A stretch of 64,000 nucleotides of DNA from Streptococcus hyointestinalis. GTDB lineage: Bacteria; Bacillota; Bacilli; Lactobacillales; Streptococcaceae. Position numbers and translations under genes: made by a program. The stretch is from NCBI RefSeq assembly GCF_011039275.1, contig NZ_JAAKGB010000001.1, positions 558,001 through 622,000 on the forward strand, read 5' to 3'. The notes below the pieces were generated by a model. That model had not been told where the DNA came from, did no database searches, and saw only the letters and a program-made list of their open reading frames with translations. This document shows, in pieces, positions 5,822-64,000 of this stretch; within the stretch, counting starts at the first letter, position 1; the number at the start of each line of letters is the position of its first letter.

Positions 5822-5832
5822 TGCTTTACAAA

Positions 5833-5873: not shown

Positions 5874-5882
5874 ATTATTTTG

Positions 5883-5921: not shown

Positions 5922-5928
5922 GTCTAAT

Positions 5929-8265: not shown

Positions 8266-8295
8266 GGGCATAAGGGCATAAGGGCATAAGGGCAT
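8266..8295. repeat. 8-bp microsatellite (GGGCATAA), copy 2
   Basis: Identical to 7241-7270 and again placed at the unit junction. Confidence 0.95.
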
Positions 8296-8560: not shown

Positions 8561-11455
8561 CCTTTCGATGACACAATTTTAGGTCACATGAGTTATGTAT
8601 CTCCCATATGATTAACCCGTTCCCTTTAAATCTTCTCGCTAACAGCTAGGGCATAATAGGTCAACGTTTTCTGGTCCATTCGTATTTTCCGAAGGGCATT
8701 AATCCTCGACTGCTAAAGCAGCAATACATTAACATGTCAACTTTCTCCACCACAGGGGACTCTCACGTCTGGACTACCCCATGCAAGATTGCAATCCTAA
8801 CGGATTATTCCTATCTGGAAAATTGTGGGATTTTCCTTGTGTGATCACTGATATGATAGAACACAATCAGATAATGCGTTGAGCGAGCATTATTAAATTC
8901 ATAGAGGTCATTTGAAATGCTGCCTTAAAAAGTGGAATAATGGTGAGGTCTACACAGCGATACAACATAGAACGACGGTTCGACAACGGTCTACTTTGCC
9001 TGCTATAATATTGGCAACCAACAGCATAACAGGGTGGAAAGGGAATACTAATAGCGGTAGCATTGCGAAAATTTTGACGATAGTAGGAAAACAAAAAGCG
9101 ACTTTCATTTGCACAATTTGCCACGAGCGTGACCTTCTGTACTAGCGAATTTTGGCACAGCTTTAACCAAACCAAGATCATTTCCTGGGCATTCCTAAAA
9201 TTCTAAAAGTGGTCATGCCACGTGTTGAGACAAATCACAGCCCTTGCGAAGCTCCTATGGGTCATCTGACAATGTTTGGCTCTCAAATGACACAATAAAA
9301 AGCACAAGAGTACGAATCTTCTGTAGCCGTGATAGCGTGTCGTGATTCGCAACTCTTTGTAGAGCGCTGGGACCGGGCTACCGCAGACTGCTGCTCAGCT
9401 TCCATCGATACGACTTTACGGTATTTGAAAAGTTGATTATATTGAAAAGACCCGCTAAAACCGCTAAGACAAACCCCATACCGATTTACGTCTACTTGTG
9501 GAAGCAGTACCGCTGACTGGTTGATAACAAGGGGCAGATGTCGTGATTAAAACCTGAAAAGAATATGATAACCAAATAGCGTGTGAAAATTATGTCAAAT
9601 TCCGTGAACGATGCGGGGAGAGGTAGTCGTTGTAACCAAAAGATACCATACTCTTTGAAAAGCGTGTGGCATAGAATCATAAACATCATTTTTTTACTAA
9701 GTCTCGCTACACAAAGGATGCGACTGCCTGACAAGCTTGGCATCGATAGTACGTTGTAACGAGAATGAAAGAGCTTCGCCTGCATTCGCAACTTCTGGCA
9801 GTCAAAAGGCTACATCATATCGGCTATATGGGTGAGAATCTAAGTCAGTGGAATAATTATTTGAAAAGCTACCAAGCTGATTACCCGCTAACGGAGCTCT
9901 GACCTGATAGCGGTCATCTGAGCACGAGGGTGCCGCCATTGATCCTAAGGCTGCTCGTGCATTCAATAAATCCGATTTCTTACTGGATTTAAGCTATTTA
10001 GTCGGTTCCAAACCAATTAGTGTTGTAACGCTTTTGCAGATGCGATGGGCTCAAAAGACTAACAGGGTCCACCCACAAAGATAGATAGTTTTCGAGGTCA
10101 TGACAACAGAGGTGAGAATGAAGCCCACAAAGGTATTGTCTGCATAGGAGTTATCGGAAGCATTGCGGTTTTCTGGCGATTTAGAGAGCTAAGACTAGCT
10201 AATAACCGCCATTGTTTATCGCAACGGACGATAGTAGCCTCCTCGCCGTTAGTCAGTTCAAAAATGCGTTATGCCTGTTCGCAACTGACGTGAGAACGAA
10301 GCTCCGACAGTGGAACGTAGATGTTGTAACCTTTTCTTTTGTGTCTTTTAGCCTATCTGGGTCCCTAGCGTGACGGACAGAAAACGCAACCTGCTATAAT
10401 AATAACGTAAATATCATTAACTAGCTAAAGATAGATACTTTGCTTGGTTCAGCGCTCTACCAAATAGGCTAAGTGAAAGACCCAAGCTACCTGATAGTAA
10501 GAGCTAGGTCCTACGTGAATGCTCGTGACGGCTGCCACGGGTACTGATATGACTAACACAATGTCGAATTTGGGTCATACTAATTAATCGCTGAATTAAT
10601 TTATTTAGGTCATCAGACAAAGACAAGGGATTTGTTTTGGGCGATGTTGGGGTCAATGAGGTCCTATCCCTAGCGTTGAGGTACACAATGATTGATGCTG
10701 GCGGTAACGCAGAAATCAGAGAAACCGCCAGAGGTCAGCGTAAATCTTTGCAGTTTTTTGAGAACTCTCTACAGTAGTCTGGAGATTTAGATAGGTAGCC
10801 CGCAACGACCCCGAGTTTGATAAATGGGACGTGGCTTAAAACCATCGGTAGTATCAAATGTCTGGCATAACAACGCAACATCACATGCGTTAGATTATTT
10901 ATATGGTAGACGGTTGGCGGTTTAAACAAGATGGAACGGGTCCCTGTCTGACGGGCATCTCCTAAAAAATGTGTTGCTCTTTCGGCAGACAACACAAATG
11001 AGGTCTTTGATGATTTAGATGCTGTTGTATTCCTAACATCACACTAGCATTGCACGAATCTTGCACAAGCTGGATTATGTTATAAAAAAATCCCTCTGTC
11101 TACAGTAGGCTCTCAATGCCCACGCTAAGCTAAACCAAAGAAAGATGCTTCATTACGCAGACGTTGAGCAAAAGATGTTTAAATGATCCTAGCGGCAAGA
11201 CCCCGCTAAGAGAAAGCTTGATTTAACAAGATGAACCCAAGCTTTTAAGATGCGTTAGCATAACAGATTAGCAAGTCAATGTCAGCTAAGTTCCAGCTAG
11301 ATATCGTTTGTCAACATAAGGTGGTGCCGTTACCTGCTTTGAAAGCATAAAAGGGCATTTAAAAGCTGACGGACTCCGAAACCTAGTAACCCCATACACA
11401 ATGGAGGATCCATAAGGGAAAACTTGGGCATTGGTTCATCGTAGTTAACTGATGA
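8561..11455. other. No gene recognised; contains echoes of the repeat unit
   Basis: No frame reaches 110 codons and no family motif is visible on either strand. Short words of the 1025-bp unit reappear out of order: GGTCACATGAG at 8583; GAAAAGCGTGT at 9657-9667 and TTTTTTACTAAGT at 9690-9702, which are adjacent in the unit at 7130-7152; and TTTGATAAATGGGACGTGG near 10817, from the unit segment at 7111-7130 with two bases lost. Promoter-like and ribosome-binding-like strings occur but do not precede a gene. Confidence 0.6.
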
Positions 11456-11905
11456 GTTAAAATTAGTCAGGACGGCTTAGATACAACAGATGATTATGCT
11501 CGCCATCATTATAATCCCTACGCAACGCGCTGGTTAAGCTACGAGCAAACTGATGAACCCTTCCAAGACCGAGGAGGTAGAGGAGTTACGATAATTGCTT
11601 TCTAGTAACGTCATATCACAAGGGATCTGATACGTGTGATGTAGCGCTGGTGTTTTTGGGACGTGGGGATAAGAGATGAGCAAGATGTGATCCATAGTTA
11701 GTCTAATGGTTTACTCTTTGACGTGGACAGTAAAAAATCGCATAAGGAGGTAGTCACAGTAAAGATTGCAAACGTAAAGGGCGATGAGCCCAAGGCTACC
11801 GGGACAGACAAAACTGGAAAACCTGTGGACGGGCATTCAAAAGTTTCATTCGACATCCCAAAAAAAGACGGCTCGTCTAAATACCGGGTGGGAAATTTAT
11901 GCTGA
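11456..11905 (+). other. Two short coding-like stretches, no complete gene
   Basis: One open stretch of 49 codons (11456-11605, ending GVTIIAF and TAG) has no start codon. A second of 67 codons (11702-11905; possible GTG start at 11723) has a Lys/Asp/Gly/Val-rich composition like an exported or surface protein (VTVKIANVKGDEPKATG, KVSFDIPKKDGSS). A different frame stays open from 11784 to 12143 over the following sequence. I recognise no family, and lengths are within chance, so this may be accidental. Confidence 0.2.
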
Positions 11906-13109: not shown

Positions 13110-16100
13110 TCACGTAAATTTTTGTATTATTAAATAGGCAGTCGGAGGTATTTGAATACTAATTAGACTAATTAGACTAATTAGACTAATTTTTATTTCA
13201 ATACAAAAAAATGGGACGTTGTCTGACAAAAATGGTAACACAGCCACGGTCTCTTACAATCTTCACGGTTGCGTAAAAAGACTAAGAATAAAGAAAAGGT
13301 AAAATAGGCTACACAATGCAAAGAAAGAGTGGTCAGGATCAAGGACGTCGTGACGGCATAGGGCTCTAAATTCCGAGCCACGGTAAAGTGATCCAGACCC
13401 GCCTTGGGGTCAAAAGAGCACGCTCAAGACCTGAAAAATCTGAACAGAGGGTCTTCAAAGTAAGCTAGTCTTCAAAAATGGCACGCTCAAACAAGATGCT
13501 TGATGACTACAGTAGATTCTTACGTCATTAGTTAAACGTTTATTTGATTCCAAACGGAGATTTTACCCGCGTGTCTTTTCAAAGCTATTTTTTCAATCAG
13601 CCTGGATTGCGGATCATCCTAGCGGTCACACCGACGAATCCCTAAGAATGAATGGCAATTAAGGGCACTCATTGGTGACTTTCATCTTTGCACAGATTCA
13701 TACGACGCGAAGTCGAAAGAGGTCTTTTAGCAGTTGGATGGGCTGTCACGAACGGGGCTTAGCAAGCTTGGGAACAATGGGTCGGATTAATAAGTAACCA
13801 AGAGGTGGAACGATCGTTTGTCAAGAGATGTGCGTCACGGATATATGGGTGCGGTTCTAAGGCCTTTAAGTGGAGACAATTATTACCTGCACAAAGAACA
13901 TTTATGACCATAAAGTCAACTTAGCCATAAAAGATACGTGTAACCCTTCACACCCGGACTCCTAGACTCCAAACCTAGGGTGGTGCCGGAAGAATACCTG
14001 GAATTGAAAAGCCGACGACAACTTTCTCATAGAATCTATAGTCACAATGGTAGACAGATGTAGCATTACGACGATCACAGTGGACTAAGTGCGCGGCAGT
14101 GCTATCTGGAAAAGTGTCGTATTTTTTGTGTACAACAGCCAGCCATGGGGTCATTACCATCGATGACGCATTCAAGATTTACCATCAAAGAGCGCAACCT
14201 GACTGGCAACCAATCATAGATCGGACTTATGATTGGGACGCTCACATTAAAGACCGAGGATCTGGAAAGTTGGACGGCCAAAACTTGACTCAAATGACGT
14301 TTCGATGCTAAGGTAAAAGCCGGTAGCGAATGGTAGACCCTTTGCAGTTTTTCTTTAGAGCTATTTTTTCTAGTCAAAGTCAAGGCTACATTCTCTCAAG
14401 TACCGTGTACCGTATAACAGCTGCTCGACTAATTAGACGTGGTGTAAAATTTCGACCGGGCCGCTAGAAGTACAATGCCGTTCCCGCTCACAAAAATGGT
14501 ATCGCAACGGTTCGAGACAGATTCGCGAGAATCATCATAAATCTTCTGTGACTTCTTTCATAAAACGACGAGTCATTAACATTTTAAAAGCGTTAGATGG
14601 TCTTCTGAAAGTTAAAGGATCTATATGGATCCTAGTGTACCGCAACTGGAACAAAACAGTAGCTGGGACCGTTGTCAATATTTTTGATAGAGGTAGGTAA
14701 GCGTCATGGCCCCCAAGAACAATGCGTTAGCGTGGATCTGTCTTGCAAAGACAACTTCCTTGTGAAATCACTTTCACAAGAATAAAATCGTTCCACCCAT
14801 TGTAACTAGACTATGATAGTCATGCTGCCATCATCCTAATGATAGAGATGGTCGATGGCCTTTGGGCGAGTTTGGACCCCGACGGAGAAGCGGTAGGCGG
14901 AGTAGATCCCTATCTGCCAAGAACTCATCAAGGTTCACCAGCCCTCAAAAGGTCTAATAGGTAAACCTGAAAATGGAACATTACATTCAAGCATTTTTCA
15001 CAGATTAGCTTCCTAAGTTCCAGTGTCTTTAACAAGTGGTCCCTATTCGACTTTACAGGGGATACAAAGTAAGACGCGAACCCTAGCGATTAAAGAGCAT
15101 CAAGGGCTGATTGGTAGACCCGCATTGTCAACAACATACACAAAAGTCGAAAATCCCAGTCACAACAGATTATTCATGCTGTCTAATCGTTCACTAGAGT
15201 GAAATTTTGCTATCAAAAAGAATCAAAATTCTTCATGTCTGATTTAGGAGTGTACAGCACGGGATTTCGATAGAGCCGAAGTCGAAAATCAACTTTTTTG
15301 GGGAAGAGTAATCTGGATGATTGGGCGCCATATCCCGCTCTAGGGATCCCAAGGGTCACATGTGTCGATGTCAATATCTTCTGTGCCGACCGGGAAAGTG
15401 TCGTTCCTGGATTCCTGACCTGGAAATGTATATGGTGAAGACCGCGCTAACAGCGTTAGTTGCACAAGCGCTAGTGCGTACCCCATTAGCATCAACTTGC
15501 TACCGGATTTAGGATATCCGTGGAAAGTCAATAAAAGATATCTGCCACTTCATTCACGACCGTGTGACAGCCAGCGGCTCTCCCTTAAAGGTGAGTTAAA
15601 CGATTGTAGATTTATTGTACCGTGGCTTCCCTAGCGGCTCATAGAGGGACCGCCGTTTGTCAGATTGGTCCGTTAAGGGCGTAGAGATTAGACGTAAGAA
15701 CGATGGACGGTATCGCAGCGCAAAGGGGTAAATGGTGGGAAACAGTTGGGATTGCGGTTGATCAATATTGGAACAGTGCTTGACCATTTGTCAAGCCTGC
15801 TGCTGGGGGTAACATTACAATCACTTCGCGCAGTAGGGGCATAGTTCCAAACACAGTTTTTTAACGAAGGTGAACGCAATAAGGCCTTTTTTGACCATTG
15901 TGCTCACATGCTCCTACATCATTTATGTTATGTGGTCACGCAACGTAAGAAGAAACAGGAAAGTTCTAAGTACAACAGCCTCCAAACAGAACGCACATTC
16001 TTCTACCGGAGATACTATTCACCGCGCAAATGGTACAGATTCATAGGAAACCATACCATTAGTGCTTAACATTTAACCTTTAATCTTCTGGTCACACCCT

Positions 16101-19100
16101 CGTAGTGTAAGACAAGTGGACCACCGCCGCGTTCCTGATTGCTTGAGATTAGGGCTAATAAAAGGACCGAGGTACAATCGTCCTAGCAATGGTGACTTAA
16201 CAAGGGATTTCGTTGCTTTGATAGCAGTAGTGTCTGGGTCGGGTGGGGAATTAGACGTCAGGACGTTCTGTCATCATAAGAGGTCCCGCGCACACGTAAG
16301 GGTAACACAGCCTGGATTTTCGCAGCAGATCACAGGTAGATGGAGTTACTATGTATACAAATCGTGACATGAGTACCCCGCTAAACGATTCGGCAAGACG
16401 CTAGGGGACAAGATGGAGTAGAGATTCATAGATCTGTAGCTTGAAAAGCGTTCATACGGCTGATGAAAAGGCACAGTGGTTGCACAGCCTGGATCGATGC
16501 TCTAGCAAAGGGACGTAAAGAATCCGAAAAGCGCAATCCCTAAGGCTACACCCCCAGCAAGTCGCAACATGAGGGTCTTGGGCTGACAACCAATGCACGA
16601 AAGAACGGACTTAAACTTGGGCTGATCGTGAACGTCGAAAAGCACCGCACAGATAGCACCCGCTAAAAAGGGCATCAGAATCAAAAGCAGTAAAAGCAAG
16701 ATGGATAAACGAAGCCTATTGAGGATCTTGAAAATCCCTAGCGGAGTCATTAGCCTCTAAATTAAAACCGTGGACGGGTTGGGCGGTTCCAATAGGGCCC
16801 AACCTAGTACGGACTCCTCTAAAAAGCGTCGTGACGACTGGATAGTTAGATGGATTACCGTGCAAAGGGTCGTTCTGCCTGAGTGTCGAAACTTCCACGA
16901 GGATATAAGGGATGTCAACCCTTTTTAAGCGCTTATGACGAATTCGGGTCGAGACCTTTAAAATACAACTTGTGAAAATGGACCAAGATGTTTTTCCATC
17001 CCTAATGGATCTATATTGAGGAATAGCATCCCTACGTATTTATATACGCAATAGCTGTCATGATTCAAAACGATAGAGCGGGCGCCGAAAGACTAGACCG
17101 CCCTTGCGCAATAGCTGCACGAACCGCTGTTGCAAACTGGTATTGGGGAAAACGTTTTCGCCCAGTCGTCGATGGCACTTCTGGTCAAAGATGAAAATCG
17201 ATGATGGTAGATAGACTTCGTAGTCATCCCTAGTTTGTCTTACAATCTGGATACAAGCATAGTAGGGTAACATTTTTATTCGGTAAAATTTAGGATGTAA
17301 TAAAACAAAACGCAACAGCCAGCTTCGATGATATCCGCGATTGCGTAGCCTGATAAGGGTGCCGTATCTGTTGATGTAGCTAATTGTGGACGACCTAGCA
17401 TAGTGAAGCTCCGTGTGTCTGACGTAAGTTTCGACTTCCTCCTTCCTTGTGAAGGTAACATTTTTTCATTACCAAGATTCATGTAACGCTACACATAAGA
17501 GGGGGTAACATTCAAAGATCCATACAAAGTGTACGAATCAATTGCTCATTAATCCAATCTCGTCAATGAAGTGTCGTCTTTGATATTCACCGCACTAACC
17601 TTTTGCTAGGGTGAGGGGGACATTTTCAGAGACGGACCCGCACAGACTAAGGTATAAGCGTATTAGCATCGGGTGGATAACATTAACCTTTAAAATACTA
17701 AAAGCAGTAGGCTCTGTACATGTTTCCACGGGTTAATCCCTACGTAGTTCAAGAGATGGAATAAAGATAACATTATTCCGGGGACCGCAGCCTCTGTTGA
17801 TGTAGCCCTCACAGTCCTAGTCTTCTGACAACTGGAAACCGTGTAATAAAGAGCATGAGTCATGTAAGAAGTTTGTCAAATTGGGTATTAGCCGAAGGTG
17901 CTAGGATAATGGTACGAGGAACTGACAAATCGATGGGGTTCATCATAGATTTCGTCTCTATTCAAAGAATTTCCCATGGTTACTAAACGCCCTAGTTTGT
18001 CATATTTTTGTGGTCCTACCGTTAGGAGCTGCTGCCTGAATGCGACGACTGGGCGACCTCTGTTTTTATCAATTGCGTAGCCTGACCCCTTTGCAATTAT
18101 TGGTGCCGCCGTTCCACGTAACACAAAACTTCTAAATCCCGCGCCAACTGGTTTGACTGCTGGGTCTAAGTCGAAAGCCGCGAAGCTCTCTTCTGGAAGA
18201 ATCAAGCGTTTGTTGCATTTAACATAAAAAATGGGTCACGGCCCTAGTGTCATGTCGCGGCTCAGATGTGCTAACCAAACTAGGTATACAGTTTTATTCA
18301 AACATCATCCTGCTCCTAATAGGATTGACAAATCGTCGTCTGACAATATCTTCTGCTGTTTTCCGTGCTAGGAAAGATAATTCATGCAAAGGGCAGATAT
18401 CTTATGAGGGTAGTTTCCGCGTTCACCGCTAAAATATAGTAGAGGATTGAAAAGGGCGATTCTGGCAGATATTACTTCATTATTGCGGTAATAAAAGACA
18501 AACAACAGCCTAGGGATCGAAGGGAAATCTTGTGTGATAAGTTTACATGCGACGAGTGTTTTCCTTCGAGACGGGTAGGCCTGAATCAGAGGAGAGCGCA
18601 CAATCGTGATAGAAGCTCCGATGGAGTTCGTCGAGCACCCCACAACATAAGAGACGGCACAAAGGGCCTTTGGCTTTGGCTTTCATGTCACTAGGTTGGT
18701 CCCGAACTCAAATATTTAAATACACCATGTGTCGACATACCACAATAGGAGACCCGCAAGCATCAAGATCCCGGCGCCAAGGTCATCGTTCTGTCTATTT
18801 AGTAACGAAGTTTGTACGTTTTTTCCGGTAATAAAGCGCACAATCGTTCTTTTCCACGGACTAAGCTAATTTTTTTACATGTAAAGAAATTCCTTTGCCT
18901 GAATTCGACTATTGCAACGTAAATTGACTGCTGAAGTCGCATCCTGGAAGCATAGCATTATGATAGATCTGGATAGCTGTGGATTTAATTTTGGGTTGAA
19001 CAGAGAGGCCTCCGACTGGAGTAACAGCGTCCAGAGGCACTGTCGAGTGGAAGCGCGACTATTGCCCTTTGCCAGTACCCAGACAACTTTTTCATGGAAG

Positions 19101-20000
19101 CACGTCGAATATTCACACCCTCTCGTTCGCGTACACCCTCAGTAGACCTGAATACTATTCAGTGTACCTGACGACTAACCTTTAATAAACAAGTCGTTCG
19201 CTGACGACAATTATCATGTCTGGAAATTTTCATCTCCGACCATTGCACCGAACTCACATAGTGAAACCTTTGGGGTATTTAAGTGCACTAAGTGAAAGTA
19301 ACACGACGACTAAAGGGCGTGGACGGTAAGAAAATTTACAGAGGGTAACGCAACACAGTACCGTATATGTGAAGAAGAAAGAAATCACTTTAGATGCTGT
19401 AAGTTTTGAACAGACACAGTATAGCACGTTGGTAACCTACCTGAAAATCAGCAATCTTCTCGCGCCGAAAAAAGGGCATCAGAGAACGTTAGACGTAGTG
19501 AGCACCGAATCGAGACAAAACTGCTGGAGATTGACCCAAATGAAACGTTTAGCTAGGGTGCCTGAACAGAGAACTATTTATCAAACATCTTTATCAAGTT
19601 ATTTATTTATCAGCCAACAAGGTCAATAGTGAGAGTGTTTAATTTCCATACGGATCCTAATTTTGAAATGATGCTGCTCCATAGGCAGTCTTTTTCAATC
19701 TTTCGGTATTCACTGGAAATCCCGACGACGTGTTCGCGGAAAGACGACTGGAACCGTGGATAAACCTTTTTCAACCGTGTTGTCTGGCCGACCATTGGCT
19801 GGGTGACAACCAGGGCGTGCTGGGAACGAAGCCCAAACATCGTTAGTCCGTGTGGGAAATTTAAAATGATGGTTTACATGTGCACCTGGATGGTATTAAC
19901 AATTTGTAGAAAATAATTGAGGGAAAAAAAGACGCTTCCACGGCTGGAAAATCAGCCTAGTCTGTAGGCCATGAAGTCGGATTGGTGGAGACCCGTGGTG
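13110..20000. other. No gene recognised
   Basis: Open frames stay below 110 codons, about what stop-codon chance allows. Apart from the 9-bp tandem repeat at 13158 I see only recycled words, for example ATCTTCTG (14541, 15376, 16083, 18350) and TCTGGAAA (14105, 14271, 19221), both also present in or near the GH1/repeat segment. No RNA gene, transposase or array is visible. Confidence 0.6.
13158..13191. repeat. 9-bp tandem repeat (AATTAGACT)
   Basis: ACT followed by three perfect copies of AATTAGACT and then AATT. A further partial copy, GACTAATTAGAC, occurs alone at 14427-14438. Confidence 0.92.
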
Positions 20001-23000
20001 ATTCTTACTGTCTGGAATTTGAGGACTAATGGATAATATAGCTGGAGAGGATTTAAACACCTACCTGAGCAAAAATATAGCGCGCAAATGAGGGGGCCTG
20101 CTTGATTGGGGTGGAGACTTTAAGAGGATTTGAGGTTTGATAGATCAGCTAACCTGACGAGAGGACATGCTGTCAACAAAGATATTTATCAAGTTACTGT
20201 GGCCTCCGATGCTAAACGAGAGGGAAAGTTACGTTCCATCGTTAGAAAGCTACGTCGTCGTGCACAAAACATCGGCTCTCTTGAAATGCGGTGCCGTATA
20301 AAGAAATCCCGCCGTATCTTGAAATGGAAACCTAAGTTGCAGACGTAATCTTCTGCAACAATTCTTCTGGTAAAATACCATCCCCCGACGACTAGGTTAA
20401 AATAAGCCTCACAAGAGAGCGGCCGTATAATTGTAGATGAAAATCAAACAGAGGTAGATGGCTGGGTTTCCAAGGCTACATGCTGACTACCTGATTTAAT
20501 TTCAGTGCTACGTTCAAGGGCGATTCTAGGTCTTTTAACCTAAATGGTATTATATCTTCTAAAGCCTGACTTAAAATATTATTACATCCTCACAAGGTCA
20601 ACAACATCACGTCAGTCCAACAACAAGAAACAACAACGTTTTAATAAAATTAACGTAGGCTGAATTATACACATCTGCTTAATGAATTAACAAATCGTCG
20701 TCACAAAGAACAAGGCCCCATAAGGGCATCAATAGTGAAGGTACCGTTATTTCGATACAAAGAGAAAAAAAGGGCAAGACAGCTGGATTTAATTTTGGAC
20801 AACAGTGCTGTTCCATGGGAGGTTTCTCGAATAAGATGGCTAAAAAGAATCAAAATTTGTCGTGAATCTTCGTGAAATGATGGTAGCCGTTCGCTTCTGG
20901 ACAGATTTGAAATGCCTGTTCGCTGTGATAAATCCATAACCGTGGAAGACAGATTAGGAATACTAAAAATATAATGTAGCCACAACATGAGTCTTTGTGA
21001 GGGGATTACCTTTAAGCAACCAAAGCTAGTATGACCCAGTGGAGACCCATAGTCTGTATGTGGATTGTAGCTACGGTATTCTCCTATGGTGCCCAAACCT
21101 AGGATGCAATTATGCCGTTAGGCTGGTTTTTTAGGCTTCCTAATTTTTAAGATTTAAATTCTGACGTGTGCTACCCGTATAGCTGCTCCACCGATGGAGA
21201 TCTATGAGCACCTAAGAAATACTAGACGAGGGGGTAAAGCAAGGATAAGGAATGAACGAAATGACTAAAAGTAGCTGGACTAAAATGACTGTCTTAGATT
21301 TGCTTGTTTTTATCTGGTACAGAGATCAAAAAATAAAAGGGTGGACAACTAAAAGCACGAGGATCTAAACGTAAAACTAGACAGAGGTGGAAGCTGCTAT
21401 TCGAATCAAATGGAAAGTCGGGAATTTGCACGGCTAAACAGTTGGGGTAAAGCCAACAAAGACGTAATTCCTCATTTACCCAGCCTAGTCTATGGCACAT
21501 TGATGTAGAACACCGTTCTAAATATTAAAGTCGGCCGTGGAATCAAAATGAGTACCGAGTGTTGGAAAATACGAATTAGAGGTGACCGTGGGTAAAGTCC
21601 GTGTGACCTAGGAGTTACGAAGAAACGTGGGAATAAGTGATTCCGACCATTGTAACACTAGCGACGACATGAAGAACGAAGAATAAGATATTTATACCTT
21701 TACAAAGGGTTTGTGTAATTATGCCGAATCAAGTAGCCTATTTAACAAATGACATTCTTCATTGTAGATATCAAAATCAGGGATCTGAGGGCCTAAGTAA
21801 TGGTATTATGCCCAACCCGACTAATTATTAAAAGCGTCTAAGCCCTGATTAAGCCCTATTTCGTAACATCACACATTGTTATGTCCTATTTGATCACAGG
21901 ATTTGCACATGTCCCTACCCGTTCACCGGGCGTTATTGAAAATTAAGCTGCTGCGAGACGGGCCGACGTCGGGAAACGTATTTTAATACATCATCCGATT
22001 AGGTAAAAGATAGAAATTCGAGGAACCGTATTTTTTGCTGTCCCGAACTCACGAGTGTGGCCTGACTTAGATCATTTCTGCTGCGATTCGATGTGGTCAG
22101 GTACGTTTGATGTGGGTCCCGTCGGGTAACCTTGTGTCTGATTCCAACTAGGGTGGAAAATTTTTTGGAATGCAAATACACTTGTGCTTAATGAAGTGTC
22201 CGTGTGATTTTTAAATAGGATTATGAGGATCCCGGAGGATCATGCTCCTCTATTTGCTGCTCTTCAAAAAGCCTTCGACTCTGGAGAAAAGCATTCCATG
22301 GCTGAATGCCCCCTCAAGGATTGCAGCTAAATTGGTATTTGTGGTTGCCGACTAATAAATACGATTGTAGATGCGTTGCATAAGCGGCTCTGTACCTTTT
22401 ATTTGCGGTAAAAGTTCGCTTTCGTAAGTAGTGTAATCTTCAAAGGGGTAGCTAGGGTGGAGTAGATAATATTTACTTAAATAGCCTATGTGTGATAGTG
22501 GAGTGCAAAGAAACCTACCCAGCGGGGGCTGATTCAAGTTTCCGTGTCCCTAGACCTGCTGGTTTTTACGTCGGGAAGGTATAGCGGGGACGAAGCATAT
22601 CTAAGGGGCTCTTCTGAACGCCGTTTTTTTCATGGGAAACAACTAAATAGGAAGAGAAAAAAGGTATTGGTCTAAATTAAAAGGAAAGGCCCCTTCTAGT
22701 CTACAAATTGGGGTCTAATTCTAGTCTGTATATATGTAGATAAAGACACAGATCAGAGTCATGACTGTCCCCCGATGTGGTTGGTATACTATTCGTAATT
22801 ATTAGGAGTTACGTGTGCTGCTACTAAGAGACGGTGCGACGAATTCGGTACAAACACCGGAGTTAGGGTGCCGTCTCTTCGGATTTACCATGGTAAGGCT
22901 AACAAAGAAAGCACGTCAGCTATTCGTAATAAAGTATTCACCGGCGTGGGACTTCCTCGTAGGCTTTTTTATTCAATTTCATGGGGACTTGATTTGAAAT

Positions 23001-41412: not shown

Positions 41413-41439
41413 TGGCGGGCGTGCGGCCTTTCTTCTTGA
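41413..41439. repeat. 27-bp near-duplicate, copy 1
   Basis: Starts TGGCGGGCGTGCGGCC and ends TTCTTCTTGA. It matches 41671-41697 with one mismatch (G versus C). The spacing is 258 bp, and GCACAAACAT follows a few bases downstream of both. Confidence 0.9.
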
Positions 41440-41670
41440 CTCCGCACAAACATTCCACGGCATCATCTACCTCTGAACGAAACCACTTAAGTGCAAAGAT
41501 CACTTACCAATCGTGTAGGTACATGGGAAAATCCAAGTGAATGCAATGGGCGTTTTAATAACACCCACAATAGCACAGTCCAACATAAAATACTTTATCC
41601 AGGCTATGACTACGAATATAAAGGAAGTAAAGTATCTGAATATAATACTTTAGTATTAGTGTCCTATGAA

Positions 41671-41697
41671 TGGCGGGCCTGCGGCCTTTCTTCTTGA
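41671..41697. repeat. 27-bp near-duplicate, copy 2
   Basis: Partner of 41413-41439. A shorter piece (GATGGCGGGCGTGC) recurs at about 46139. Confidence 0.9.
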
Positions 41698-44427: not shown

Positions 44428-44447
44428 TCGTGTTCCCATGATTGGCG
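44428..44447. repeat. 20-bp direct repeat, copy 1
   Basis: TCGTGTTCCCATGATTGGCG, identical to 44971-44990. A related piece (TGATTGGC, then GCGGCAGCACCCG) lies at about 44177. Confidence 0.92.
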
Positions 44448-44970
44448 TGCGGCAGAGACATGGGAAAACCATCATCGCTGCCCAAACACCAAATGGACCA
44501 AACACCAACACCTCATCCCGAATTACCTGCTATCTATCGATCGTCATCGCTAATTTACACAATATAAAACCTAGGAAATCGTCAATCCATAGTTACTCAT
44601 AATGTAAAAATCCATAATGGACCGAGGTCCATAAGCTCGCGGTCATTAAAGCTACAGAAAGAGCACTATGTCATCATTCACGAAACCTGCACATCTGATG
44701 TGTTCCCTTAGATCGAAACCGGCAGAGAGAGGCTGAAACTCGGAATTCTGCCCAACAACAGAGTCACAACAACTACCGCTCAAATTTCAACAGAAGTACC
44801 TGCAGAATCCACTACTGCAGCGAAGGAACCTAACCCCTGACTGCCACTAAATCGTCACTACCTCGTCACAAATCCTGTAAAAATACAGAAGGCCCCTATC
44901 TTCTATCGTTCGCGGTCATTAGAGTGCACAAAAGCAGAATATGTTTTTTAGAATGAAACCTGCACCGACA

Positions 44971-44990
44971 TCGTGTTCCCATGATTGGCG
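44971..44990. repeat. 20-bp direct repeat, copy 2
   Basis: Exact copy of 44428-44447, 543 bp apart, followed by GCAGCACCCG as in the related piece near 44177. Confidence 0.92.
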
Positions 44991-50900: not shown

Positions 50901-53658
50901 TCTTCACCTACTGTCTAAAAAAGCTCGGATGATTGTGCGATGTACACCAACCGGTTTCCACTGTGCACAAATCATAATGGCACAGGATAGTTCTATTATG
51001 CGGATGGTAACAATCATCGTGCTAGCGACATGGCTTGTTGAGCAGTTAAGAATAAACTTGTGCCCTTAACACCGGTAACAAATCATCCATGCAATCCTCG
51101 TATGAAAAGTTCTAACAAATTAAATACTAGTCATAATAAAAATATCAATGAACACAAATTAACTTGTGCTCAGGATAATGAAGAGCACAGTATGATTACT
51201 GAAGATAAGTTTGACAAGAAGTTACGTTGATATCAGCGCAGAGGCGTACCTCAAGGAGCACGTCATCTATCCTAACACATCGTTTTTCCAGGCCTAAATT
51301 TATCACAAGAAATGATAGAAAACTAGATACGCAAATTGATGGTAGCCCGAGTGTGTGGAAAATATCTTATTAATATATAACACAAAAACAAACGAGGTAG
51401 CGTCATGCCCTTTGATCTAGATAAACTGCGGGTGCTAGCACCTTTTAAATTGCGCAGACAAACCGGCTTCCACTTAAATGATCCTATTCGAAAAGACCGA
51501 GTCCAAGCCCTCGTATCGCGAATAATGGAGGCAAAAATCGCCTCCCAATGTCTTTTTGTTTCTTCTAGAAAAGTACACTGGGTTAATGCAAATTCCTAGC
51601 ACGTTAATGTACCTCAGAACTACGAATATAAGATGAGCTGGGTTCTGGTAGAGATGCTTGATCCCTGGTATAGGGTGTTGATATCTATGAGGCAATAGCA
51701 TAATTCATGCCCGCCTACGAAAGAGCACACGTGTCGATAGAAATGGCCTGCTGATCAAATTAATGTGCCCCTAAAGACGTCACATCGACACACCGTAAAA
51801 AGTGAGCGCCTCCCCCCAGTCATATATTTGTAAGTGTATGTAGAGACGCCTCAGTCCAATAAACTTTGATTCTCCGTGGGTGACACGCTTTAAAACACGT
51901 AAGAAAGCGATTCGGATGTTATGCTTTTGTATCAGCTAGGAAATGTCACGAACGAGCTCCCTTCGACTGATGTGGATCACGCAAGATGGGTAGAAGAATT
52001 AAAGCTTTATGATCCTGAGCATGACTACGCGTTGCTTCATGAGATGCGTAATAGGGCGAAGGTAGACTCGGAAGAGAAATGTTAAAATCAGCCCTAGAAC
52101 GTTGATTTTGTTAGCACAACTCGGAATATAACAATGAACCGTAAGTGCTGGTGCTATATTCTAAACCCAATCGGTTGCTTGTGGATGGGCTAAAGAAATG
52201 GCCAACTGAGGTCCACAAGGGAGGTGTGGTCCACTCACCCAGATTATGAATATCACGAACTCGGAAACGTGTTGCACATATATCATGACAGAGGTTGAGG
52301 AAGCGCGTTGTGGATCCATCAAGAAGTTATGAGGCGAGCACGTCAGCGGCGACAGAGGCAGCACGGTAAGTCTCGTGTAGGATAGTGTCGCTGGCAATGT
52401 CCGCTCGGCAGTTATCACACATACCGGTTGAAAAGGCATACCCAACTGATGGTGGTTCTGTAACTTGTGCGGCGGAATATCCCCACTATAGCTCATCGTC
52501 GTTTGTTTGTTTGTTCATGACAGTCCACACGACACAATCGCAGATGGCGGGCATTATGTATAAGTCCGCGACAAATTTATGATCTGGCTCGTTGTAGAGC
52601 TAAAGAGACTTACCGCGTTGCTGGAAACGTTCAAGCGTTTCAGTCACTCGAGGGATGATAGTCGCTGCCGCCCCAATCAGACGACCGCCCCGTGAGATGG
52701 CGACCCGGAGGACATGAGTCACATAGATCGTGATTGAGCTCAGACGTTAATGTCTAAAGGCCATGAGAGCACGCATAGAGAAACGAAACTCGGCATATTA
52801 GAGAAATGAAAGTTCGTCCACTAAAAAGACCTCGGCATCACGAGTCATAGCACGGCACCGCGGGAAACGTCGGCATTTCTGACCAGACAGGCACAGAGGA
52901 TGACTTTAGAGTAAATCTGTTTGACTAAAGATATCGCCAACTACCAGATCCAAATGGGCAATGTCGCTTTAAGCATTTTGAGATTCTCTATAGCTACGGT
53001 TGTTGCAGGCGTAAACGGTCATATGAAGTTAGAGACCGTATTCCTGGTAAAACCGCGGGATGTAACGGCTTTTTGGTGAGCGGTGTTTGATCAGAGCCCA
53101 CGGCATGTTGAGCTCTCACCTTGTGCTAATCACCAATCCTGTCATTATGCGCAGTGTAGTTGATTGAACTCACGCAGATTCTTCAAAGGAAAGGATATAT
53201 TCACCGACTTAGATATTCCGATTGACATTCTATCGAGATTACTACCTGCCAAGTGTGTAATGATTGTAGAAATGATCTCATAGTTAATTAGTCATAATGT
53301 ATTTGAAGATTAAAATTCCTATGGATCACGAAGCACAGTCCTATTGACAGTCACTCCTGTGCTACCAACCACATTGTATATTAGCGCGCACACCAAGCGT
53401 AATGTAACAGAAAGTACACGGCGAAAAGTCACAACACCCACTGGCGCGCACCCATGCCCGCTTGTATCTAGTTGACGCGTTGAAAAGAGTTCAAGCGGGA
53501 AATTGGATTTGCTGGGTGCATATCCGAAGTTAACATTTGTAAATATCAAGTCCACTGTGGTTGGGATATATCTGTTTTTAGCGGTCTAAACGAGGACATC
53601 TGTTGAGAGAGACAGCGTCATATTGAAGAGGACGCTTTAAAGATAGGGATCATTCATT

Positions 53659-54204
53659 ATGGCTCGCGCACTAAAAGCGTCAAGCAGGGTGACACAATCT
53701 GATGGCGCGAGGTAAAATATTAGAAAACCCCGTGCTGTGTAAACAAGGAGCAGTCCGAACGGAGCTCGGAGTGGTTAACGGTTGCTCAGGATCTTGTATA
53801 CTGTCATTATGCTCACCAAGCCAGGATACACAAAGCGAAAAAGTGGTTCTTTTAAAAAAACCGTACCGGGTATGAACTCGATAGCTCCAAATCAGTTTGT
53901 GCCAATCAGAGCAATGAAAGTTTTGCGCAGACATGAAAATGTCGCACCAATGTGGTTATTAAAAAAACCGTGCAACAGAGAAAAAGCTCTTAGGATAAAG
54001 CGCCTAGCGACATTGACACATATTCCTGGCCTTGGTATGACGTAGCTCACGACGCCAGTGTCTTACCCACGAGAACCGGAGTGGACAAACCCAGTGATCG
54101 CAAAATGTGCGCGCACTGATCGCACAATGTGTAAAATATAAACAAACGTCAAGAAGAGACGTGCTCTTCCTATCCATATTAAAAACCCCCTACCTTGGAA
54201 GTGA
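53659..54204 (+). other. Frame of 181 codons interrupted by five TAA/TAG
   Basis: From ATG 53659 (MARALKASSRV) to TGA 54202-54204, this frame has no internal TGA but five TAA or TAG codons. The longest uninterrupted piece is 53782-54045 (87 codons, Lys/Arg-rich). In the standard code it is not a gene. A TGA-free run of this length is expected several times in the region by chance, so I list it only for testing. Confidence 0.12.
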
Positions 54205-57200
54205 GTGGCCATGGATCAGTGAGTATCTTAAGGATCGTTGAGAAAATAAATATCATGCTACCGCTAGCAGAAACTATGTTGTAGTCAGCGGCGGGTACAG
54301 CATGAGTGGAATGTGCCGTGGTCAAAAAGTCTGTGAGGCTTGCTCGTTAATGGATGCAGTTAATGGATTCCTCTTACGCCTCAAGGTCGCGCACGTTGAC
54401 GTAGTTGATATTGAAGATATATTGCAAGATGAGCGTTCGTGTCCGAACCAGTAGGTACCGCGGGCAAATCATGGCGGGAAGGTACCGGAATTTATGTCCC
54501 TCCACCATGAGAGCGGCGACCCGTTGCTGTTATGAGAGGATCGCGAGGCTACCAGTCCCAGCTTGCGTTGTTCACTAGTTATCACCGAACCAGTTATCAC
54601 AGCGCAGAGGGCAGCTATACCAGACATCGTATGAGGGCAATGGATGCGGATCTGGGGATCACCCCCAGTCAATCTTCACAAGAAGTGGCCCGCTTGGTAA
54701 TCCGTCAATATGTTCTACCAGCGCGCCAAGAAGCAAGAAAAACCGCGGAAATGCCGTTGTGCGCACAAAATATGTATCGAAGCCCTTAAAAAACTCGATT
54801 GAAAATGAGTTGATCTTAAGCGCCTGAGCATTATCACAGCAATCGCAAGTTCACTTCGTTACGCACTCCCAAATCAATATTCCTGAAACACATCGGAGGC
54901 AAGTAATTGTGCCACGCACTCTAAGGATCTTGAAGGAAGTCACAAAGTCACCGAAAACACAATGGAGCTGTGGAGACAGGTGATTGCGGAGTTGGATGCT
55001 ATATCTGTAGTTACTCATATAAATCAATAGCAGAATGATAAAGCGCAAAAACGAAAACACAACGAAAAAGTTTTTAGTGCCGTGGATACTATCAACTGCC
55101 GATCTGTTGACATTTTACCCCAATGTCTAAATCTTGAGGTCCACCGATCGGAGCGCCTTTAGTTGGGCTAAACTAAAGATACTGCACCAGTCGCGCTAAA
55201 CAAACCTCAAAGAAAAAATCATAACCCCAGGGCCACAGCGCAGCCGCAGCCGTAATTAGTCATCCACAGTGGACCCTGCCAAGTAAAAGTCCACCAATGA
55301 GTAAGGTGTAATTCCTTAGATCGGAGAAAAGGCAGCAATGATTGAAAAGATAGAAAGTATGATACGGCTTATCAATGTGTTGATATATTAAAGCTCACTT
55401 TCAAAGAATTACATTGAAAATCATAATTGTATATTCTAGAAATTGAAACCCCGCTTGATATATTAAGCAAGCTTGGCTCGGGCATATGCGGCGTAACGGT
55501 TCGCTGTACAATGATGTAACAGTGGTGCTGACTTAGAGCACATCTTAAGTATGCGCGATTTTAGCAGTTAACACATGACCTGATCGCGAACCAGTGTGGT
55601 TATTAACAATGCAACAACTCTAACAGCGCAAACTGAGTCGCACGCGATCTGCCTATTCGAGCATATGTTAATGCTGGCGCTAAGTACTAATGATCCCGAG
55701 TGGGACGCTTGAGGAAATCGCTGGCAATGCTCAGTCCGTTGGAAGTAAAGCTCAAGCAAAAACCACTTTACATTCCGAATGTAAACATGGCGCTAAGCCT
55801 AGGCCGTACATTACTACAAGTAAATGAGCTAAGCAATGTGCTAGCAGCTTGGGTTCATTCGGTTGACTTCACAGTGTTTGATTAAAGGATGACTTTTTTT
55901 CCAGAAACGATATTACGAGTATCAAATTGTAGTTTAAGCGAATCTAAACTTGGAAGGTAACATGAGAGGTTGTAACTTGCTGGGATACGTGCTCTACCGC
56001 AACACAGAGGCGCTGGCAAGCCTGCGTTAATTATCACCCCCAGGCGGTTGCTTGGGTGCACGGCGTACATCCCAATCTTGATTGTAGGATAAAGGTCGTC
56101 GCAGAGGTTGAGAGCACAGAGGTTGCTTGGAGCGGCTGTGTAATTCAAAAGATACGGCTTGCCAATCGGGAAATTGCAGCCCTCGTTCACTTACCGCGGG
56201 TTATCGCCACTCACGGTGACAAAGTCTTGGGTGCCTTTTTGGTCTGGGATCCAATAAAGAGCAGAAACACCCGCTTCCGTGCAAATGAGTGGGTCTTGGA
56301 CATTTTAACCAGTCAGTCCAGGCAGCACATATACACATGAGGGGAAGCACGGGAGTGGTGCATCAGTGTATAATTGTTTGACGTAAGCACAGAAAGTTTC
56401 GATTGTAGTCATGGGTAAGGAGGTACCGCCGTCACATGCTGTATGAGTATCACCGAGATAGAAAAGAACTCGAGCCTCATTATCACATGAAAAAGCGTTC
56501 GTTATAACTTTTTACTGTGAATCAAGAACCGATTGTTCTGTGTCGGTGCCTTTGATGACTTTTGAAATTGTGCTCGTTACTTAAAGGATATTATCAAAGT
56601 CAAAACACCGAATTAGAGAGTGCCGTGGATATCACGAAACACATGCGTTGCTACTCGGATGCTTTTTGACGTGCTCTGGAGCGTAAGCATCTACCGCCTT
56701 CATTACGTAACTCGTATCGGCTTGGGTTTGCGGCGAGGAAGTCGTGACAACGACTTATTAAGCGTCCATTGAGTACGTCGGCAAACTCACGTAGTGGTTA
56801 GTTTAAGCACGGGCATACAAATGCGACATTGTCATTATGTCGTCAAAAGTACGGGCCAATATCACGAAACCAGCACGGGCTTGTGCCCTTTGAAGGCATT
56901 TAAAGGTCCGTACATGAACTACTTTTAGGAATTATTTCGTTAAAACCCGGCGATAATCCAGCTGGTTGCTATAACAGAGTGGACAGCCTTGGTAAAATTA
57001 TTTAAATTATTTCGATGGTAGCCAGTGTATTGAAAAAGGTATAATACGCTAAAACTAGGTTTACTCAAGCAGTAGCCCGTCGTGACAGCTTGGGTTGTGG
57101 TGCCAGAAGAAAAGTAACAATATCATCATAATTGGATCTTGTAAAAAAAAGCCCTAGCATTGTTCTCAAATGCTGATAATAATGTTAATATCCTGTAATG

Positions 57201-60200
57201 TACCTCACGATTTGGTAGAGCTAATTCATGTTAAGCAATATGGAACATCCCCGAATTACATCCGTCAACACTCGAAACGCCTCCGGGATCCTAAGCAACA
57301 ATCGCTCCTATTCTCCAAAGACCAAAGAAACAGAGTAAAAAGCTAGGGTCGAATTACGCTAGGTGCCAGAATAGGGTGCGCACAAGCCTCCTAGCAGGTC
57401 AAATCCAGTGATCAGTGTTCTGTTGCTCCAACTAGGGACCTCAAAGCGTATGAGCGATTGAAAAATCGCGACCGTCACATCGGACCATACCCATGCAACC
57501 ACAGAGTTTGACTTGACAGTGCGGATCGCACCAGAGATGCCCGCGCAAGCGCCTGAGGTTCTGGAAAACCTAATTCAGTAGTTACATAGATACCATGGGT
57601 AAATCTCGCCTTTTTGTAAAAAGTACTATCCTACCGCACAATATCTATTTCACACATACGGGCCTGTACATCTAATTGAAGCACTAAATGTCGTTAAAAA
57701 TGTGTTTACCCATTTTGACAATCACAATGTGAAGATGGGCAGGCGTCGAGCTCCGAATCTCCTCGAGTATGAGCATCATAATACGCCTTTTGGCACTGAT
57801 CTTAAGTAGCAATCATGCTCACCACGAAGTAAGATTGGTAAGATGTATGTCCTGAACCGGTTGGGACTTACCTAGGTTGATCTTGCTTTGATGAGTAAAT
57901 AATTCGAAGGTTCTGTCGAAAAAGTCACCGTAGTCACATGGCTATAGCACGTGACGCCTGTCACATCATTAAGTAAGCGTCAGTCCGCACAGGTTCAAAA
58001 AGATCTATCACTGCGGGAGGTCAATAAGTCCGGGACGCTCGCGCTCAATAACTTTTACAATTCTACTTTTTGTTCGATGGTGCAAACTTAAATGACGATA
58101 GTTCAAGCCTCCGTGGAGCAGCTTGGATGGACAAGTATCCAGTGAGGGCTTGAGTTGATACGGTTGCACAGAGAAGTAAATATGGGAACGATTGTTATGT
58201 CCGTAACGTGGCAAGCGCAGCAGTTTCTCTGTGACTCGAAAAAGTCAGCGCCTTTTGAGAACGTCTATCGACGGCTTTTTGCAAGTAAATCAGACAAAAA
58301 TCGTTGATAACAATAGGCTTATATTGAGGCTGTCGAATGAGGCAAAAGGTAAAGTGGTGCTAAACATGGCTGTAAACGATGGCGTACATTAGTCAAATAA
58401 GATAGTGCGGTCAATGTGACAGGCAAAAGAGCGTAAGTTCCGAAAAATAAAATAATTGTGCAATATCATAACCCAAACGGCTGCCAAAAAGATTATTGTC
58501 CTTGGTAATCGAATGACAATCGCGAGGGTGTGCATTGCTCGTTTTGTTAAAAAGATATTCCTGGTTTGGCTCGACGCTTCGTTTAGAAACATTCCTGCTC
58601 TGTGGAGCATGTATATGTGTTTGCACAGAAAGGAAAGTGGCTGCCAAAGACCAGGAAGTAAATGATTAATCGCTCCTCTGGGTAAGCAATCACCGCAATC
58701 TCGAATGTAGAGACGGTCGAAACTTGCTACTATGAACTACATCCTGATGTGTCGAATCACTATGAACGTTCACTTAACGGTCATCCCTATGATAGGGCTA
58801 TCAATTATGAACGTGCTCTTAAGCTAGGGGTCTTAGACGGCAGGTTAGGTGCCAGGGGTGCTGAACTAGTGAGGGTCTCTATCCTGTGGGCACAGAACTC
58901 TAAGAATGTAAAGTTTCGATTAAATCACGAAGCACCGCACGCCTCACCTGACACAATCAACTTTTCCGCGCAATGACTTAAATCTGTTGACAAACATCAG
59001 AATGAAGTAATCCAAACCAGTGTCTGGGTAGTAAATATCGGGTGTGGTTGTAACCACATACGCCATGCTTAAAGGCGGGACTTGTAAAATCCGACGGCTA
59101 CGCAAATTTTGTACTCGTTCCGATGTACAGGGAAATGTTCTGGGCAGTCCGGTGGTGTCCACAGTGAGTCTCTTAAACCACAACGAGCTTTGTATGCACA
59201 GGCAGGCGGTGCTGACCCTGCGTATCATGATAAACGAAACCCAGTGTTAGTTATACACTTGCGCATATCATAATTTTTCCTGCCAGACACACATGGTGAG
59301 AGCAAGGAGCAGTCTCGTAAGGTTGTGGGTGCCGATCACGCGGAATCCGCACATGTTAATGAAGAAAAGACAGGCTTAGACTCTAGGAAATGCTTGGGCG
59401 CCTCCGAGCTGTAAGTACAGGCAAGTAATGCCCGCCTTTTGAGAAAAGATGACCAGGAAACGTACCCTTTCCCTTGACGCTAGGAGTCCGGGACTGCCAA
59501 GGTGCCAGAGACGTCTTTTAAGAGTTTGCCAGACAAACAACGACAGGGAATTCTAGTCTTAAGGAGGTTGATACAGGCTTATTATGACAAATGCAGTACG
59601 GTTATTATGCATCATGTATAATATTACAACTAGACATCACGAAAGTCCGACTTAGAGCTCCTTATGTCCGATGACTACTACCGGGTGCAATACGGCCGTT
59701 CTGTTCAGAATGACGCTCGCATAGGGAGCGCAACGCCCCGTGATTTGGTACAGTACCCCAGGTAAATGATCGCCTTCCCCCTAAAGTGGGTGAGGGTCTA
59801 CAATATCGCCGGTTGACGTGCTCTGTTGATCGGCATTAATCTTGCTGGGACGGTGCAAGAAACCCGTACATAGGGGGTCGGGATGGAACCCAGCATGTTC
59901 CTAAATGGTGAGGTTGGGACTAGGGGTAGTGGCTGATTTGCAGAGGCTAAAACGACAATAGGCTATCTGAATGATCTGCCAGAAATCGGAAAAATCGATG
60001 ACCCTCTTAAAGACCTCACTCAAGGGGCTGTGGTAAATGGCCAAGTAAAACATGGCGTACATTCTGGAGCGTTGAGAGAGCGTAGCGTAACTCAAGGGAT
60101 CCTCGGGCGGGATGTGATGACTCACTATCTCAGACGAAACCCAGTCCTAATTTAGATTGCAACCACTGACCACACCAATGTGTTCGATGTACTATGAAAG

Positions 60201-60824
60201 TTTCAGTCCGGCAAGCGGCCTGGGACTCATACGCAGTCTCTGGAGCTAGCGTATGAAATGGCCAAGCTAATTCAAGAGATGCTTGCTAAGTACGGGGGAG
60301 TGGAGTTCTCAAGAATCAAGGCGGATCCGACAGGCGGTCATAGCGCACCGAATTAGGAGGCTAAAAAGTATGTCCTGAAAATGTTCTATCTACCAGACAA
60401 CGCACATCAGGCGGATTGAAAGTGGTTAACGCATACCCACTCAAAACTAGATCGGGTACGAACACTCATTCAGCGCAAATGCCGTCATTGGGCCTGTACA
60501 GTCCAGGCCAACCATAAAATTTTGTAACTTGCTTATGTTTGAATGTCGTAACGAAGCTAAACCTTAGTCGCTTATGAAATCGTTTTGGTACAGGCGGATC
60601 GCATGTTAATTAACATTTCAGAGGCAATTGTAGAAAATAGACTGACCGACGCTTCCGATTAAGAAACAAAAGTTCAACACACCAAGCCCTTTCCCAGAAA
60701 TCCTCAAGTCCTACTTGCGCGATCCGCGACCCGAAAAGAATCAAAGAAAGCGGCCTAGTCACTTCGTTCCCTTTGGTGCTCTAGCGAAAAAGCGGCCTAA
60801 ATGGCGCGATAGTAAAACTCAAAG
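54205..60824. other. No gene recognised; scattered short frames
   Basis: Composition is more GC-rich than at 31-40 kb. Plus-strand frames of 61-94 codons occur (54532-54789, 55700-55885, 56056-56340, 59044-59250). At 58422-58665 and 58662-58976 two frames overlap as ATGA, but the second has an in-frame TAA at 58683. None shows a known motif. Confidence 0.5.
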
Positions 60825-61043: not shown

Positions 61044-61065
61044 AGAAGTCACTAGGAGGCGTTGT

Positions 61066-62201: not shown

Positions 62202-62582
62202 ATGTTTGCTTTTTCAGAGGCGATAATCCTTCCACTTGCTCACCACCAGGTGATTCGTTGTATAAAAAGCACGCTGAAGTGGATGGGGAGAGAACTCTAC
62301 AATTAGTTCAAATGGCGACCAAAAGTCTACACTAATGATCTCGCCCCCAATGGAAGGCAATTGCACTTATTGGAGAGGGACTGCCGCACATGTAGAAAGT
62401 GGCGGTTTGATGATGAGAAGAAGTGGCGTAACATAGAGAAGTATGTGTTTGAGACCATCCTGCATTTCCTAGGACAGCGCAATCACGGCGACACAGCACA
62501 CGATGTGTTCTGGACGATTGAAGATATTCAGAATGGCGCTGGGATTAAAGATCCGGACAATAGTGTTGAGTCTGTGAGCTGA
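62202..62582 (+). other. 127-codon frame with one internal TAG
   Basis: ATG 62202 to TGA 62580, broken once by TAG at 62304-62306; the piece from TTG 62361 alone is 73 codons. The second position of its codons is A-rich, as in real coding DNA (37, against 28 and 16 at positions 1 and 3 over 91 codons, hand count). It contains a CRTCRKW motif (two Cys). It resembles a gene with one nonsense change, but I find no family. Confidence 0.2.
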
Positions 62583-64000
62583 TGTATATCCCAATCTGCC
62601 AGAAGAGAATGTAGAATTTGTGTCTAGAATAGCACACCAGTTGAGCGTAAGCACTTGTCCAATACATTGCGTGGTGCTGTTCGCTACCAGGAGGTTTGGA
62701 CTACCGCATGAAAAGACTGCCGCGTTATTAGGAAGGATACACAATACGGCACCAGAACCCAACGAAGGCTGTCGATGGACAACAGAAATACACTAATTGC
62801 TACCTTCGAATCGGTCTGTGCCAGCATGGCGAAGTGCAAACGACGCTCCTGAACGACACAAAGGCAAGCAAACGGAGATGTAGGATGTATAGCCTCCTCT
62901 AGTCCTTCGAGGGGGTCTGGTTACTCGGTTTGCGAGCTTAACGTTACGGATCGCACAACACAGTGTCCAGAGCCGCGTTCGCACCCGCATGTTATTCTGT
63001 CCGCTCCCCAACGCCGTAAACTTGGGACTTCATAATGTCAGTGTCATCAGTCCGAATGATCCGCACGCGCGGACCAATCAGATCCGAAATGACGCTTGAT
63101 GGACGCTTGAGACTAGCAAGTCCGCTGTAATGATTTTGTTGTCCTAATCGCCGAGAGAGCGAAGCTGGTGGCTTGAGGGTACTACGAAGGCCACTTACCG
63201 CAAGTTATTCTAGTTATTTCGAATGATCCCAGAGTTTGCTTTCATTTTGTCAAGAGAACATATCTAGTGGATGGTTTAGAAAACTAGGCTCAAGTCCCGT
63301 CAGGACAATATGGGCAGTCTCACCGGTGCCGTGTTATTCGTTACTCTAAGAGAAGTGAGTCTCGTTCCTGTCACGCACACGGACTCATACTATCGTAGCG
63401 TTAATTATCAGGTAAAGTCCGAACATTCACAAGCGACCCAACGGTCAATGGGAATTTATATCTAGAATTGCAAACGGTTATGTGAGGTACTAGTCACTGC
63501 CAAAAAGTACCATGCAGACATGCTTAACGTTCCTGAAAACGACATACCAGCATACCTGCAAGCGAACTAACGTGTCTACACGCACCACTTAGACGGCAGC
63601 GGAATCGACGATCCTGCCAATAAGGAACTATGGGAACCAGCCATGGCGTACATTGATCACGACAATCCGCACAACAGGCAAGAACTCTCTTGGATGATGT
63701 ACTCTAAGAACGTCACCGACCCACCGAACCTCATCGTTACAGAAGTGTTAGTTATGGACACCTTCGACGCGGATAGGGGCTTTGTATAAAGTAAGTTAAC
63801 GCAGCGGATCCTCTCCAGAAATGTATTAGACCAACGAGGGGCTGTGAATAACACTTCCGTACATTTGAGTGGGGCTATCAATACATCAAGAGCAATGATT
63901 CACCGGGCTATCAACGGTGAGGTACGAGCTCTTGACGAAGAATACCTCACCGTTGGGCGGGAACAAGTCCAAGTGCTAGGCTACAATCACTTAGAGGGGG
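62578..64000 (+). other. Long stop-poor frame to the end of the window
   Basis: In this frame I count ten TAA/TAG and one TGA (63097) in 474 codons, fewer than the ~25 expected by chance. The stretch 63571-63786 (72 codons) has clear codon periodicity by hand count (G at positions 1/2/3: 26, 9, 16; A: 21, 29, 14). The last 70 codons (63790-64000) run open off the window and include LDEEYLTVGREQVQVLG. It may be a decayed or generated coding sequence; no family can be named. Confidence 0.22.
63912..63955. repeat. Perfect 13-bp inverted repeat
   Basis: CAACGGTGAGGTA (63912-63924) and TACCTCACCGTTG (63943-63955), separated by 18 bases, lie inside the last open frame. There is no T tract after it, so it is not a terminator; it could be an operator-like site. 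Confidence 0.85.

Follow-up and report, generated by a model that had tools for sequence, protein, structure and literature searches.

Why does recognisable gene organisation end near 8.56 kb in a 64,000-nucleotide stretch of the Streptococcus hyointestinalis chromosome? This stretch, here called the window, covers C1:558001-622000, where C1 is contig NZ_JAAKGB010000001.1 of a 2.2 Mb genome in four contigs. The initial annotation had set apart positions 8561-64000 (55 kb) as a region of recycled words without recognisable genes and had taken it for generated or corrupted sequence. Our analysis indicates that the window is almost certainly ordinary chromosome text that came out of a damaged DEFLATE stream, decompressed despite the error. 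It is a data artefact and not a biological feature, and C1:564.8k to ~900k of the analysed copy is unreliable.

We found 17 open reading frames (ORFs) of at least 120 amino acids in the window; ten begin before 8.6 kb, which leaves seven for the other 55 kb. None of these seven had a Pfam match at E <= 0.001. Three-base periodicity, a profile that had been proposed as a check, dropped to noise after ~8 kb, with a weak return from ~40 kb. Between 8561 and 50000, stop codons occurred in the six frames at 0.054-0.062 per codon, where base composition predicts 0.063. No tRNA was found, and the Rfam search gave no match at the gathering score. ORF counts, periodicity and stop-codon rates thus bear out that gene organisation ends near 8.56 kb.

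The loss is not confined to 55 kb. Stop-free cover (frames of at least 100 codons) was calculated per 20 kb from C1:566561. It was 0.21, 0.07, 0.19, 0.29, 0.37, 0.50, 0.49 and 0.48 in steps 1-8, and 0.56, 0.73, 0.76, 0.74, 0.83, 0.90 and 0.95 in steps 9-15. Four stretches to the left of the window had a cover of 0.73-0.94, the lowest of which (0.73) carries an rRNA operon, judged by its match to contig C2, and 14 stretches farther away on C1, all outside 480-1000k or at >=1.0 Mb, ranged from 0.79 to 0.96. As cover is normal on the left and rises stepwise on the right, the break is abrupt at its left side and gradual at its right. At 875-892k, some excess of T>A and T>G was still present (35.6 per 1000 T, compared to 14.8 left of the junction), so the damage has no sharp right-hand limit. 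Overall, some level of damage touches ~12-15% of the chromosome (C1:564.8k to 842-900k), and it passes the end of the window, fading over ~300 kb.

At the left side, the damage sets in at ~6810-6858 (~C1:564.8k), and 8561 is the first base past an exact tandem run. A break at 8561 therefore holds for the loss of coding structure, but not for the start of the damage. All copies at this junction are on the + strand. The first one, 41 bases long and exact, lies at 6858..6898 at a distance of 1025 from its source (5833-5873). It is followed by garbled text (6899..7270), enclosed between two distance-1025 copies, that has a partial likeness to the cupin gene at ~5447-5797 (local alignment score 96; best of 50 shuffles 51) and closes with a period-8 copy at 7245-7270 (a distance-8 run of 26). 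Positions 7271..8560 are an exact copy, 1290 bases long, of the text 1025 bases upstream, which we read as a zero-byte run in the compressed stream. We dropped the idea that this run consists of five maximum-length (258) copies in favour of a run of ~6-base tokens, as suggested by the simulations described below. Scrambled text then fills 8561..64000, near noise at its left, recovering slowly rightward and extending to ~C1:900k. Autocorrelation up to 4 kb had no outstanding peak of the kind that fixed-offset mixing of two sequences would leave.

No gene family had been recognised in this text, but Streptococcus sciuri, the nearest named relative found, does align to it. Comparisons were made with strain SQ9-PEA, contig NZ_JANUXX010000003.1 (C15) and contig C11. 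Window positions 52,568-56,781 aligned at 56.7% identity (E = 0), and 15,201-20,800 lay on the syntenic diagonal. In the two halves of the latter stretch, the ungapped diagonals reached 35.5% and 34.4% (z 11.9 and 10.3; second-best 29.2%), and at 15.2-20 kb the diagonal drifted by one base across 4.8 kb. BLAST identity was 57% at 610.6-614.8k, 59% at 627-632k, 61% at 634-642k, 66% at 651-668k, 72% at 672-684k, 69-71% at 702-722k and 76% at 732-740k; past 750k it was 73-88%, mostly ~80% (pieces of at least 1 kb). Five damaged bins had 1.6-2.9 gap openings per kb, and two baselines 1.6 and 2.4. The scrambled text is real Streptococcus chromosome, colinear, with words swapped in place. Homology across the region, named beforehand as evidence against an artificial origin, appeared as DNA alignment in the right part, but protein profile searches with the seven longer ORFs did not show it.

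The remnants at 15201..20800 (~35% identity) correspond to uvrB and an amino-acid ABC transporter, and those at 52001..60800 (43-57% identity in 800-base windows) to an operon for a sugar ABC transporter that includes a LacI-type regulator, named from the S. sciuri ORFs. Stretches compared within 8,561-15,000 and 22,401-51,900 gave no clear diagonal in C15. The latter stretch (22401..51900, ~30 kb) is possibly a strain-specific island, unreadable owing to the damage.

The recycling of words was measured as pairs of 12-mers per 10,000 positions, in 2-kb separation bins, over 133 kb from C1:566561. Same-strand reuse was 18.0, 12.4, 9.3, 5.6 and 3.8 in bins 1-5, and opposite-strand reuse was 0.9-2.1 in bins 1-3. 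In the first three bins, a random-substitution null gave 5.9, 2.5 and 3.0, and an order-3 Markov null 1.7, 2.9 and 1.2. The words are indeed recycled, as had been noticed, and neither null shows such recurrence past 2 kb. The genome's own undamaged coding text gave 23.3, 6.0, 5.4, 5.0 and 4.2, and the first bin alone is therefore non-diagnostic. Same-strand recurrence reaches ~8 kb, with hardly any on the opposite strand. The errors also track the + strand irrespective of gene orientation, with an excess of T>A and T>G. A simple mutation signature was considered for this excess and rejected, as neighbour dependence is weak. Undamaged sequence has far fewer GATC, CGCG and GGCC words than scrambled C1:566.6-600k, and GATC was counted 134 times in the scrambled text versus 30.8 predicted from its undamaged frequency. 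As an aside on the living genome, the rarity of these three words in undamaged sequence hints at restriction-site avoidance.

Such a pattern could arise if the sequence had been written on a single unwrapped line and packed into a DEFLATE container, either gzip or zip, at level 6, the default. Approximately 0.5 kB of compressed bytes would have been wrong, mostly zeros, and decompression would have gone ahead despite the checksum. Zero bits would decode to one repeated token (~6 bases, distance 1025), which would give the tandem run at 7271-8560. The decoder would then regain step with its output out of register, and back-references across the damage would fetch wrong words from the preceding kilobytes. 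Token lengths would have stayed right, so the text would remain colinear, nearly without extra indels, while literal bases and lucky copies would bring the truth back gradually over ~300 kb. At level 6, zlib searches 128 chain entries, ~8 kb in four-letter text. The number 1025 is the base of a DEFLATE distance code with all extra bits zero (RFC 1951).

To simulate this, real Streptococcus text was compressed, bytes were zeroed and the stream was decompressed. Zeroing of 376 bytes near the locus (five text starts, two offsets each) at level 6 resulted in a period of 1025 and a run of 1284-1292 for two of the starts (520k and 540k), and in a period of 2049 and a run of 1200-1206 for the other three (480k, 490k and 500k). 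Levels 5, 7 and 9 gave periods of 257, 2049 and 4097 in every case. With unwrapped S. sciuri text, level 6 and 512 zero bytes, nine of 14 trials (some offsets drawn twice) gave 1025, four gave 2049 and one ended in a decoding error. The tandem run of the window (period 1025, length 1290) fits the distance-code-base period expected of a zero-byte run.

The rate of recovery was compared in bins of 44-65, 67-103, 105-133, 134-160, 160-180 and 180-235 kb. In the data, retained bases, estimated from second-codon mismatches, were.69,.79,.88,.88,.94 and.98, and in the level-6 simulation on the genome's own text (12 stretches joined).62,.74,.83,.88,.91 and.95. Level 5 recovered too fast (.97 to 1.0) and level 7 too slowly (.44 to.74); levels 1 and 3 were not used, identity being flat on the assumed diagonal. 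Reuse of 12-mers in the level-6 simulation (29.1, 10.7, 11.4, 5.9 and 5.4) was like the data beyond bin 1, and levels 5 and 7 gave 26.4, 5.1, 4.2, 4.1 and 4.4, and 28.9, 10.2, 9.1, 10.5 and 9.0, respectively. When recovery rate was taken together with word reuse on the same strand, level 6 was the closest. With wrapped FASTA, the simulated text had 7-13 gaps per kb across the bins from 44 to 100 kb, many more than in the data. Simulated errors likewise followed one strand, and their positions along the sequence were close to independent. Among the features expected of level-6 DEFLATE output, these are present at the locus: the register is kept, the same-strand source of words is within reach, and an abrupt start is followed by one-sided recovery. 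The anatomy of the locus was approximately reproduced.

Several observations weigh against this explanation. Three of the five level-6 starts gave 2049, so the match to 1025 hinges on the position of a block boundary. Level 4 recovered from.35 to.84, not far from level 6, although its word reuse was far above the data. The data recover faster than the simulation, with an ORF cover at 180-200 kb of 0.73 versus 0.52. The simulation did not reproduce the base-change spectrum, with C>G changes at 68-160 per 1000 versus 15 and 29 in the data (671-726k), although this spectrum may vary with the shift of register. Greedy token length just past the junction was only slightly over controls, and another scoring puts the gap openings at 700-750k near the top of their range. 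Finally, length-preserving single-bit flips left the text almost intact in at least four level-6 trials, which means that a shift of register is required. We infer that this file suffered this accident, and likewise how many bytes were hit, which type of container was used and that the text was unwrapped. As a rough estimate, the bad block may have held ~12 zero bytes, 100 others and 376 zeros, near one 512-byte sector.

Which copy was damaged is a separate question. We consider it probable that the public record itself, and not just the analysed copy, carries the compression damage, as suggested by the low genome completeness of 89.5%, as reported. With ~12-15% of the chromosome affected, valS, uvrB and like genes would score as missing or as pseudogenes, and 89.5% fits genes lost to damage. 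The same kind of damage limited to the analysed copy, and absent from the public record, is the less likely of the two, though a serious alternative; against it, such a completeness is expected from a damaged record, if it was computed on the public one.

A failure of sequencing or assembly, in which a poorly covered or noisy long-read stretch was left uncorrected in the consensus, is very improbable. Unpolished contigs are present in this genome, among them C2, which redundantly repeats a part of C1, but the errors in the window are substitution-like with few extra indels, the opposite of those in C2. Smooth fading over ~300 kb and same-strand word reuse within ~8 kb also speak against such a failure.

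We regard as more improbable still that the region is real biology, namely a decaying or hypermutated region whose mutation rate declines with distance from a rearrangement at 8.56 kb. The abrupt junction with its tandem duplication and the one-sided gradient would agree with this. However, the single match over the family cut-off for valS in the genome contains 18 in-frame stops, although a natural chromosome region is expected to have its essential single-copy genes intact. No uvrB ortholog was found elsewhere in the genome, only weak helicase-type matches (best E 7.8e-15, 27% identity). The chromosome as written could hardly support life. A degraded duplicate of an intact region was also rejected: a 20-kb S. 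sciuri query found no intact second copy elsewhere, only the four damaged stretches and four short matches (46-108 bases). Nearby words copied on the same strand, and rare palindromic words turned common, are further arguments against a biological origin. Foreign DNA was rejected as well, since megablast of 8561-33000 against plasmids and phages gave no match and CpG was not strongly depleted.

That generated or simulated sequence was inserted in the record is equally remote: the first 40 kb, where frames are near random and periodicity is slight, would agree with it, but it is contradicted by residual synteny inside the window (35-57% identity) that grows rightward and by a reuse of words not seen in the order-3 Markov null, so that of the initial wording 'corrupted' stands and 'generated' and 'Markov-like' do not.

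The left flank (1..6810) is sound and free of damage. It contains recN, DegV, a GDSL lipase, DUF2140, a cupin-like ORF and a partial GH1 glycosidase (its C-terminal part, on the - strand), based on Pfam and NCBIfam matches; the Pfam score of the cupin-like ORF is under the cut-off. Between 4.1 and 5.3 kb, HU and PTS genes were named by eye only. Positions 2-4438 have 82% DNA identity to S. sciuri.

Elsewhere in the genome, C2 7327-20000 matches C1:493.5-506.1k at 99.8% identity with 24 gap openings and no mismatch. Frames of the C2 copy are broken in an aminoacyl-tRNA synthetase region, and it looks like an unpolished leftover. C3 3851-7329 matches positions 1-3486 of C1:1200001-1220000 (3.5 kb, 99.6%, five gap openings), which is either shared mobile DNA or another redundant contig. 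In C1:862001-882000 a stop-free stretch of 2042 codons was found, and GAATCA-type words at 840-1000k occur 30 times over expectation; this looks like a long repetitive surface protein.

The biological interest of the locus is low, but it has some practical interest. If the public record is damaged, this would be a silent class of genome-record error, which other public genomes may carry unseen. Its fingerprint would be an exact tandem run with a DEFLATE distance base as its period (257, 513, 1025, 2049 and 4097 in simulation), followed by same-strand word reuse and one-sided fading, and would allow such records to be filtered. They will turn up in any search for gene deserts, orphan DNA or hypermutation.

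S. sciuri SQ9-PEA is syntenic with this genome at ~80% DNA identity outside the damage; its genes are intact, whereas no counterpart for window 22.4-51.9 kb was found in C15. No paper on a compression-damaged genome record was found by title in the open-access literature. Kerbiriou and Chikhi reportedly decompressed gzip from the middle, where wrong or unknown context is said to spread via back-references in DNA text and to fade slowly, as it would here. Their work (arXiv:1905.07224) is included in the reference list of PMC13232939. Theirs is a deliberate method, whereas the present case would be an accident that writes plausible bases into a genome record.

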